A DNA stretch of 64,000 bases, taken from the NCBI RefSeq assembly GCF_902806985.1, contig NZ_CADCXY010000003.1, positions 1-64,000 on the forward strand. The letters are read 5' to 3'. This document shows, one piece after another, positions 9,543 through 41,997 of this stretch. Numbering within the stretch: the stretch's first letter is position 1; each line of letters starts with the position of its first letter. A program made the position numbers and the translations under genes. The DNA comes from Pseudidiomarina piscicola (GTDB lineage Bacteria > Pseudomonadota > Gammaproteobacteria > Enterobacterales > Alteromonadaceae). The notes beneath the pieces were generated by a model, which was not told where the DNA came from, made no database searches, and saw only the letters and a list, made by a program, of their open reading frames with translations.

Positions 9543-9553
9543 AATGCGCCGCA

Positions 9554-9889
<336 letters not shown>

Positions 9890-9903
<14 letters not shown>

Positions 9904-12115
9904 GCTGATTAAAGTGTTTACAGTAATCAATGAAGGTGTCGAGCTGCAAACTGCGGCTGTAATAGAAACCCTGTTGTGAGTGGCAGTGCTGACTGCGTAA
10001 GAACTCCACTTGTGCACGGGTTTCGACACCTTCGGCGATCACGTTCAAGTCTAACGTATGCGCAACTCGTATTAATGCCTCCACCAATGCTGCCTGCTTC
10101 TGATTCGCCGGGATATCCTGCATAAATGAACGATCAATCTTAATACTATCAATCGGGTAAAAGCGTAAGTAATTGAGGCTTGAGTAACCGGTACCGAAAT
10201 CATCTATCGCTAAATGTATGCCTGCACTGCGTAAATGTTTTAGGCTTTCCTGTTGCTGTTCTTGGTCCCGCATTAACAGCGACTCGGTGATTTCGATCAT
10301 CAGTCGGTCGGGCGGCATATTGCCTTCAGCTAATGTAGCCAACCAGCGGCTCGCAACGTCTTTATCGTTAAACTCACGGGGTGAACGGTTGATGGCGATA
10401 GTGATATCCAAGCCTTGATCGCGCATCAGTTGCCAATCTTGTACCACCTGCTTCAACACATATTCGCCCAACCATACAATGGCGCCGGTTTTTTCCGCGA
10501 TAGGAATGAATTGTGCAGGTGAAATAGCACCATGTTCCGGGTGTTGCCACCGGATCAAGGCTTCGCAATGTTTAATCAGGCCGCTTGTAGACTCAATCAC
10601 TGGCTGATACTCGACATGGAAAGCGCTGCTTTCAAGGGCGTTGATCATGTCGTGGTGCAGCGCAATATGCTGCTCCGTGTTCTGCCGTAACGCCGGGTCG
10701 TAAAAAGACACAGAAAGTGAGCCTGTAGATTTTGCCGCATACATGGCTAACTCGGCACACTTGGTAAGTTGCTGTGCACTGCTGGCATCAGTCGGGTACA
10801 AGGCGATACCAACACTGGTCGTGATATTAATATGGTTCTGTTCGATATCTGCCGTATCAAGTAAATCACTGATGAAGACTTTCGCCCGTTGTTCGGCGAT
10901 GGCTGGGTTATCGATATCAGCAAGCAATACGATAAATTCATCACCGCCGACGCGGGCAATGAGGTCGTTGCTGCGTAACGAGCTTTGAAGCTGTAACGCG
11001 ACATGTTGCAGCAGTCCGTCGCCGACGTCTTGCCCCAAAGCATCATTGATATCGCGTAAATGGTCGAGATCAAGCATCACCAACGCGAAGCGCTGAGAGT
11101 GTTCACGCGCTGACGCGATACGCTGTTCAAGTCGCTGCTGAAAATAATTGCGATTGATTAAGTTGGTCAGAGGGTCAAAACGAGCCTGGTAGCTGATGGT
11201 ATCTACCGCAGCTCGAAGCCGCCGCTGGGTGATAATTAAGCTGGCAAAGGCAGCACTAAACAATGCCACGGCGGTAAGCCCGATAAGCCAGTGGGGCCAA
11301 TAACTTTTTTGCTGAGCCAGCCATTGCCCACTGCGCGGCGCTATCGCCAGTTGCCAGCGTTCACCCGGTACCAATACATGGGTGATCATGGGCTGTTGCT
11401 GAAGCACATCAGTTGGACCAACAATGTGTTGCAGCTGTCCACTGTTGGTTTCACGATGTAGCACGAAGCGGTATTCAGGGTGTTGAAAAAACTCTATTCG
11501 CTCAAACAGTTGTTGGTCGTCGATCACTAGCGAGGCGATGCCCCACAGGCTGTCGTTACGATTATAAATTGGCACTCTAGCGATAAAAGCAGTGCCGCCT
11601 TGAACGAGGTCCACCGGACCATTAAAGACAATTTCGCGACGATCGATTGCTTGCTGAATATCTGGATACTGTGCCTCGACACTGGTGTAGTCAACGCCGA
11701 TGAGTGGTTCGTTGCCGGCTAACGGATACACAAAGCTAACTTTCAAATCGGGAGCGACCGCAAGGTGCAAAATACTCAAGTCACTATTTAAGAATTCATC
11801 GATCACGCGCTTTAAACGTTCTCTATCGGGCGTGTCTTGCCAAAGGATCTCTGGCTTAAGCGCTTTGAGGACCAAGATGTTGGCTTGCACACTTTGCTCG
11901 ATACTGGCACGCATCGATGCCACTTGGTCAAGCGCTCTGCGTTTGGCGGTCTCGCTTTCTTGCAGGCGTTCGTAATTGACAATGGCGTAAACAACACTGA
12001 TAAGCGCTGCGGCGATAAAAAATAAAATAATAAAGTCGCGCAGCATGCGCCACTTTGCTTGAGCGGGGCTAAGCGACGGTGAGCTATTTAGTAAGTGCTT
12101 GATAAGTTGGCGCAA
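9890..12115 (-). CDS. Membrane GGDEF-EAL protein (cyclic-di-GMP synthesis/breakdown)
   Basis: This 741-residue protein has an N-terminal membrane helix (about 27-48), a periplasmic sensor region (about 50-275, CHASE-like), a second helix (about 276-298), then a GGDEF domain and an EAL domain. The diguanylate cyclase motif GGDEF is intact (390-394), with an RxxD inhibitory site just before it. The phosphodiesterase motif EAL (518-520), the DDFGTGYSS loop and AEGVET are also intact, so both activities are possible. Only the usual VNxS is altered, to INRS. The start is a TTG with no clear ribosome site; an ATG 23 codons downstream is an alternative. It lies between rnpB and mraZ. Confidence 0.9.
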
Positions 12116-40225: not shown

Positions 40226-40729
40226 TTAGCTACCAGAATAAGCTGATGTGCATCCGTCTATCCGTGAATCTGAGCCGTCATCGCCAAAATCAGAGCAGGC
40301 GATAGTCCAATTCATATTTGTTCCGCTTGCTGGACTTGGAGTTAGCTCAACAGTGATATTACCAGCCGAATCTCCGGCAGCAATTGCATCAAGTTCAGCA
40401 ACAATAACACCATCAGAGACAGATGCGCTATTGAGACCGTTTACTGCATCACTATCTGTTAAAGCCGCAGGAATCTTTGTGGGAATCGGGTTGCCATCAC
40501 CGTCGTCGACTGAACCACTGCTGCTGCATCCGCTTAATTGGCCTGACTCGTGGTAACACAATGCGACAGCAGTTTTATAAGAACCCAATGCAGCTATACC
40601 CGTGGCTGCCCTCGCACGCTGCGTATAATCAGAGTAAAGTGGAATGGCGACGGCCGCCAAGATACCGATGATTGCAACCACAATCATCAACTCAATTAAG
40701 GTAAAACCTTTTTGTACTTGCGCTTTCAT
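40226..40729 (-). CDS. pilA: Type IV major pilin PilA
   Basis: PilA is the structural subunit of the pilus. The 167-residue prepilin has a short basic leader MKAQVQKG, cleaved by PilD before F of [20 protein letters not shown]. Glu5 of the mature protein, needed for assembly, is present. The variable globular part contains four cysteines: a pair near residues 57-67 and a C-terminal pair framing the acidic D-region loop ([17 protein letters not shown]). A GGGAGA site precedes the ATG. The mRNA has a long leader with a GEMM-I riboswitch. Confidence 0.95.
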
Positions 40730-40799
40730 GTCAAATCTCCCGAAACTGACGTAAGTAATTAACTATTACATTATTATTGTTGTACGGTGTGGCATTCCT

Positions 40800-40822
40800 T
40801 TGTTGGTCTAACACACCAACAA
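40800..40822 (-). promoter_or_regulatory. Perfect inverted repeat in the pilA leader
   Basis: TTGTTGGT and ACCAACAA form a perfect 8-bp stem with a 7-nt loop, about 70-95 nt upstream of the pilA ATG and downstream of the riboswitch aptamer. It may be part of the riboswitch expression platform or a protein-binding site. No T run follows it, so it is not a simple terminator. Confidence 0.5.
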
Positions 40823-40901
40823 CAAACCCTGCACTAGTCGAAAGACTGTGGTTGCGCTTGCGACCGTATTTATAGCCGAAAAAGCCACGCCATCCACCAG
40901 A

Positions 40902-41014
40902 CTTTAACTTGCAGCCCCGCTATCCGCCAGTACCTTTACAGTAAAAGGTTGAAAAGAACCGGTGGGGACCGGAGGTTTTGCGTCACCACTTCTCAGCGGT
41001 TTTGCCTTTTAAAG
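40902..41014 (-). ncRNA. Cyclic-di-GMP riboswitch (GEMM-I class) upstream of pilA
   Basis: Read on the minus strand, this stretch contains the GEMM-I conserved core in order: AAAAGGCAAAACC, GTGACGCAAAACCTCCGG and GGCGGATAGCGGGGCTGC. The first stem CCGCT/AGTGG is closed by a GAGA loop of the GNRA type, matching the tetraloop that docks on the second arm. The second arm pairs CCTCCGGT with ACTGGCGG. CTTTAA at the 5' edge can pair with TTAAAG at the 3' edge to close the aptamer. The base that separates cyclic-di-GMP from cGAMP binders appears to be G, favouring cyclic-di-GMP. It lies about 170 nt ahead of pilA. Confidence 0.88.
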
Positions 41015-41066
41015 CAATCGCCTGGCAATCCCCGAGCTGGGCTCGCGGTTTGCGCACTGCAACTTA

Positions 41067-41094
41067 AACATAGCAGATGTAAGGAAGTCGTCAA
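41067..41094 (-). promoter_or_regulatory. Promoter of the pilA riboswitch transcript
   Basis: On the minus strand TTGACG (41094-41089) is followed 16 bp later by an extended -10, TGCTATGTT (core TATGTT, 41072-41067). The -35 lies next to the nadC stop codon. Transcription would start near 41060, about 45 nt before the aptamer, giving a leader of about 330 nt. No sigma-54 consensus was found here, unlike pilA of Pseudomonas. Confidence 0.65.
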
Positions 41095-41097
41095 TAG

Positions 41098-41997
<900 letters not shown>

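Follow-up and report, generated by a model that had tools for sequence, protein, structure and literature searches.

A c-di-GMP-I riboswitch aptamer precedes the major pilin gene pilA of Pseudidiomarina in a conserved leader with two mutually exclusive folds

The leader between nadC and the type IVa major pilin gene pilA was proposed, in an earlier note made from the DNA letters, to carry a cyclic-di-GMP (c-di-GMP) riboswitch. We wanted to know whether the leader indeed contains such an aptamer, whether the arrangement is kept in related genomes, and how the RNA might control pilA. The window, i.e. the whole stretch of 64,000 nucleotides that was analyzed, belongs to a host genome of 2.51 Mb in 16 contigs. 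Its closest named relatives by NadC are Pseudidiomarina spp. (81% identity to P. homiensis), in a list from which entries for the host genome itself, or for one very close to it, may be missing, and by these relatives the genome appears to be a member of Pseudidiomarina. On the minus strand, nadC (41098-41964, TIGR00078) is followed by the leader, pilA (40226-40729), pilB, pilC and a prepilin peptidase gene. The 167-aa PilA protein matches both N_methyl (PF07963) and Pilin (PF00114). All leader features described below are on the minus strand.

An Rfam cmscan of the whole window gave a match to c-di-GMP-I (GEMM-I, RF01051) at 41016-40907 (53.3 bits, E 1.4e-7). The match spans the full model (1-87) and exceeds the gathering score of 35; a low covariance score would have spoken against the proposal. 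The aptamer (40907-41016) consists of P1, P2 and P3, and its alignment contains the features that mark members of this family: a P2 with the GNRA loop GAGA, GACGCAAA, the base of P3, and the closing stem P1, formed by GCUU (41015-41012) and AAGU (40910-40907). P3 additionally holds an inserted hairpin. The three core motifs quoted in the earlier note, as well as its GNRA-capped first stem, second stem and closing stem, are all present in the minus-strand leader. The ligand-discriminating base had been read as G, and G is indeed the base (41006, model position 11) aligned to what we take to be the Vc2-G20 position; C at 40911 presumably occupies the Vc2-C92 position (Vc2 numbering). The c-di-GMP-I-GGC family (RF03167), which is of the same clan as RF01051, also matches the 411-nt region with 54.6 bits, under its gathering score of 59, while the P. 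aestuarii locus (L060) is above that cut-off. When folded alone, the 256-nt stretch was not stabler than shuffles (z -0.42), and the evidence for the aptamer is therefore the family score and conservation, not folding energy. RF01051 has only one match in the host genome, as against 36 GGDEF domains in its 2.5 Mb, one of which lies inside the window (10721-11182). The window also has a bacterial RNase P class A RNA gene (9553-9908, 323 bits).

The aptamer is located between nadC and pilA, and the pilA ATG (40729) lies 177 nt past it, close to the distance of about 170 nt estimated earlier. Screening of 26 genomes of the genus resulted in 24 RF01051 matches in 21 genomes, and 21 of these matches, one per each of the 21 genomes, precede the pilin gene. 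The type IVa major pilin gene thus has a c-di-GMP-I aptamer in its predicted leader, an arrangement kept across the genus, and we are highly confident that this is a real riboswitch on pilA. The other three aptamers occur in genomes that each also have the pilA-leader copy. Two of them (L032, G167:C6:194705; L036, G153:C1:44034) precede spore-coat-U (SCPU, Csu-type fimbrial) genes, a label that was Pfam-checked (PF05229) for L032 and is unchecked for L036; the third (L034) precedes a gene without a Pfam match. Four of the genomes lacking a match (G166, G155, G156 and G164) have nadC followed by pilA with a leader that contains no aptamer; in the fifth (G161), a contig end precludes judging this leader.

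Of the 80 named loci in the NadC list, 25 were scanned with Rfam, nine of them from Pseudidiomarina, Idiomarina and Aliidiomarina and 16 from other genera. An aptamer was detected at seven of the nine loci (six RF01051 and one RF03167, the latter in P. aestuarii); the scan found none at the Idiomarina xiamenensis and Aliidiomarina sanyensis loci, nor at any of the 16 loci of other genera. RF01051 is present somewhere in 92 of 147 sampled genomes of the wider family (stricter filters). At 69 aptamer loci outside the genus (30 plus 39 from 40 regions, the 40th of which duplicated another), the 1.5-2 kb examined contain no prepilin-like gene that lies downstream in the orientation of the aptamer; one locus (L203) has such a gene in the opposite orientation. 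Applied to loci within the genus, this test was positive for 20 of 20, and hence the placement before pilA looks specific to Pseudidiomarina in this sample. At a locus of another genus (L216), an SCPU gene lies downstream of the aptamer too. Many aptamers in other genera of the family have a further neighbour in common: at twelve loci (L018, L019, L021, L022, L023, L025, L027, L029, L193, L197, L201 and L206), the aptamer precedes a gene of about 335 aa that starts with MKYHDSIKQAE or similar; the L022 member, the single one scanned, has a GGDEF domain (PF00990).

The earlier note overlooked the expression platform: the aptamer is one section of a conserved leader that extends beyond it and holds a competing hairpin. 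This leader starts at 41060 in the window. Except for L033, all of the 21 leaders have GCARUGCGC, a hairpin named Pa and CCAGGC upstream of the aptamer, and a strand S2 followed by a strand S3 downstream of it, with a length of 310-368 nt from GCA to ATG. L033 (in G158) has no conserved flanks and is left out of all counts made on 20 leaders. A promoter had been predicted just upstream, and a sigma-70-type promoter-like site with an extended -10 (TTGACG N16 TATGTT, 41094-41067) was found there by consensus scan, right after the nadC stop codon. TG precedes TATGTT, and about 0.7 such sites are expected by chance in the region; TTGAC...TGNTAT is present in all 21 leaders of the genus.

Hairpin Pa (41030-41048), at the 5' end of the leader, has a local fold z of -3.0 in the window and of -0.9 to -6.6 over 18 different segments (100 mononucleotide shuffles each). 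The corresponding values for hairpin Pc (40777-40825), which is located between S3 and the Shine-Dalgarno (SD) region and is closed by UUGUUGU/ACAACAA in the window copy, are -2.8 and -2.5 to -5.6. A third hairpin, Pb, was no stabler than shuffles in most of the 18 leaders used for these fold tests, from which L040 and L050 (repeated Pa) were left out. Pa and Pc are kept as hairpins while their sequences diverge between species. An AAC-AAU-AAU-AAU stretch (40780-40769) is present before the pilA SD; four AAN repeats occur in 10 of 20 leaders and AACAAUAA in 13 of 20, and we take this stretch to resemble the Hfq (A-R-N) motif. Past the aptamer, no Rho-independent terminator was found in the window, the one site detected being inside P3. 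A crude script gave terminator-like matches in four of 20 leaders, at three different places. A Rho-independent terminator is thus not conserved in the leader, which does not have the make-up of a transcription-terminating riboswitch.

The conserved flanks contain strands that can pair in two ways. Strand S2 (CUGCA AGUU AAAG UCUG GUGG, 40894-40914) provides the 3' strands of P1 and of an additional stem, P0, whose 5' strand UGCCAGGC (41020-41027) pairs with 40902-40895. Alternatively, S2 pairs with S3 (CCAC AGU CUUU C GACU AG UGCAG, 40829-40851). Since S2 can pair either with the P1/P0 strands or with S3, the two folds are mutually exclusive. All four P1 pairs are kept in 20 of 20 leaders, and all eight P0 pairs in 16 (seven of eight in the other four); the P0 strands are nearly invariant and hence give no covariation support. 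For S2:S3, 17 of 17 pairs are possible in 17 leaders and 16 of 17 in three. Over 18 distinct sequences, 99.3% of 306 cells are paired, compared with 26-47% (at most 47.1%) when the strands are slid by 1-3 columns. Double changes were observed at two pairs, C-G to U-A in the window and G-C to A-U in L043. None of 500 shuffles matched the pairing percentage or the double changes, in a comparison that ignores relatedness, and the number of pair types equalled that of the shuffles. The per-sequence comparison is moderate, with 1 to 55 of 200 shuffles pairing as well (1 of 200 for the window). As the sequences of S2, S3 and the SD region hardly differ between leaders, the covariation evidence for S2:S3, confined to two pairs, is real but thin, and the same scarcity of variation in S2 and S3 explains why a mechanical covariation scan recovered P2 and not S2:S3. 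The pilA leader of G162, an incomplete genome (L054), has U at the Vc2-C92 position, CUGCA being UUGUA, with the S2:S3 pairing kept. The predicted 5' leader thus combines a promoter-like site with mutually exclusive folds, as expected for a riboswitch.

S3 also contains AGUCUUUCGG (AGUCUUUCGA in the window), which is complementary to the ribosome site of pilA. This candidate anti-SD (40847-40838) faces the SD region UCGGGAGAUU (40734-40743), where GGGAGA is present in 20 of 20 leaders. The core of S3:SD retains eight of eight pairs in 18 leaders and seven of eight in two. In the window, S3:SD forms ten consecutive pairs (-10.3 kcal/mol), a value reached by 1.7% of 300 shuffles. As S3 can pair equally well or better with three of the window's 26 other ORF starts, the complementarity is weak evidence when taken alone. 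A further pairing that was considered, S3 CUUUC with GAAAG at the start codon, is missing in L041. A search for the S3 pattern with at most one mismatch returned, among the matches listed, five Pseudidiomarina genomes and G048. GGGAGA is absent in the four examined relatives without aptamer (G166, G155, G156 and G164); G166, which has neither aptamer nor S3, has GGGAAAA in its SD region. Such a difference would be expected if a constraint had been lost, although descent confounds the comparison. The PilB tree leaves the place of G166 unresolved, so that loss of the aptamer in this genome is likely rather than proven.

We also considered whether the aptamer might be part of a larger RNA, such as a ribozyme or a second aptamer, but an Rfam scan of 40700-41110 with E up to 10 gave nothing else credible, and the dual pairing of S2 largely explains the conserved flanks. 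A covariance model of the flanks (R1), built from nine of 19 joined leaders, matches 20 of the 26 genus genomes and seven of the 147 family genomes, namely five Pseudidiomarina genomes and two with the match inside a protein gene, presumably dinB, which we take as chance matches. R1 often placed its 5' half inside the aptamer, and its alignment was therefore not used for the counts.

Both folds were compared in a folding model by forcing each state. The energy difference between the two forced states ranges from -2.1 to +7.8 kcal/mol; without ligand, S2:S3 is favored in 14 of 20 leaders, by a mean of 2.5 kcal/mol over the set. Ligand binding could overturn differences in this range. The modelled opening of the SD is higher by more than 0.05 in the S2:S3 state in 14 of 20 leaders and lower by more than 0.05 in none. 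For the window itself, the opening does not depend on which state is forced (0.78 and 0.77), and the S3:SD probability in the aptamer state is 0.00, against a mean of 0.20 over the 20 leaders. When unforced, neither state dominates in the window (0.06 each); averaged over the 20 leaders, the aptamer-side stems reach 0.15 and S2:S3 reaches 0.30. In the model of L037, as judged by eye, a strand other than S3 hides the SD. In L033, a comparable hairpin and anti-SD might arise from other sequences, but the SD opening was no different between the states (0.23 and 0.25).

These features suggest a translational OFF switch with a competing-strand platform, a reading that we hold with moderate confidence. 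Transcription would start about 45 nt before the aptamer, as deduced from the promoter-like site. In the absence of ligand, S2, which comprises the ligand-site C and the 3' strands of P1 and P0, would pair with the downstream S3; S3 would then be hidden, the ribosome-binding site open and pilA translated. Binding of c-di-GMP would let P1 and P0 hold S2, and the released S3 would pair with the UCGGGAGA ribosome-binding region, Pc helping by bringing both together, so that pilA translation would fall. The arrangement of the leader therefore probably points to c-di-GMP lowering, not raising, PilA. A wider version is more speculative, and we consider it rather unlikely: a three-strand relay (P0/P1 strand, S2, S3) by which c-di-GMP represses pilin translation in a genus-specific leader would be joined by a second input, e.g. 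Hfq plus a small RNA, acting through Pa, Pb, Pc and the AAN-repeat stretch, so that two signals would set pilin output on one RNA.

c-di-GMP usually favours attachment, and the same riboswitch could be an ON switch in which the ligand raises PilA, e.g. because Pb/Pc become free to refold; c-di-GMP would then promote pili. The C. difficile pilA1 switch is ON (PMC6366702), and the folding model of the window itself does not favor OFF. We nevertheless regard an ON switch as unlikely, because S3 is complementary to the SD region and the modelled SD opening over the 20 leaders shifts, where it shifts by more than 0.05, always towards a more open SD in the S2:S3 state.

Somewhat more doubtful is a switch whose target is the transcript, through Rho-dependent termination or RNase access, instead of the ribosome site. 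The length of the leader and its lack of conserved Rho-independent terminators would suit such a route, as would two statements on Vibrio: class-I switches there do not work through control of transcription termination (PMC6366702), and the mechanism of Vc1 was called unclear (PMC4744006). The complementarity between S3 and the SD, however, offers a simpler route.

It is very improbable that the aptamer is decayed and kept by descent only. Four relatives do have pilA without it, and in L054, from an incomplete genome, the C92 position is occupied by U; but the sequences of Pa, the P3 loop and Pc diverge, whereas there is almost no change in the motifs, the promoter and the switch strands. Equally little speaks for recognition of cGAMP (GEMM-Ib) instead of c-di-GMP, since, despite the GEMM-I before pilM of Geobacter metallireducens using c-GAMP, the base at the Vc2-G20 equivalent is G, a selectivity factor though no hard filter according to PMC9262584, and the genome encodes 36 GGDEF domains.

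Control of pili by c-di-GMP or by GEMM-I riboswitches is already known from C. difficile pilA1 and Geobacter pilM. We found no description of the element in the literature searched for Idiomarina and Pseudidiomarina riboswitches, an early Idiomarina listing in the 2007 GEMM paper being possible; of two papers that mention Idiomarina, the c-di-GMP riboswitches in one belong to a Methylophaga strain (PMC12530212), and the other names Idiomarina solely for a GGDEF structure (PMC6456294). What is new is the aptamer within a conserved leader with two mutually exclusive folds, a platform that is unusually readable and not a new kind of system.

The GEMM-I of G. metallireducens pilM is likewise placed before a type IV pilus gene, and its aptamer and expression platform fold in mutually exclusive ways, but it responds to c-GAMP, is a transcriptional ON switch with a terminator, and controls pilM and not pilA (PMC9262584). 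In that species, c-di-GMP raises PilA-N by a route that the authors call unclear (PMC12285248). Vc2 (tfoY) and Vc1 (gbpA) of Vibrio cholerae share with the Pseudidiomarina element membership of RF01051, G at the selectivity position, a gammaproteobacterial host and the lack of a Rho-independent terminator, and PMC9262584 describes Vc2 as a translational OFF switch. In contrast to both, the Pseudidiomarina aptamer is found before the gene of a type IVa major pilin, and its leader has a competing strand that can be identified (S3) as well as a candidate anti-SD, whereas no apparent anti-SD was found for Vc1 (PMC4744006). The platforms of gammaproteobacterial GEMM-I riboswitches are poorly defined, and in the pilA leader the competing strands are explicit and have comparative support, which makes the platform directly testable by point mutations. 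At C. difficile pilA1, a c-di-GMP riboswitch also lies directly before the gene of a type IV major pilin; that switch, Cdi-2-4, has a class II aptamer and is an ON switch acting by transcription termination (PMC6366702). If the OFF reading is true, c-di-GMP would lower the main type IVa pilin of Pseudidiomarina, opposite to its effect on C. difficile pilA1.
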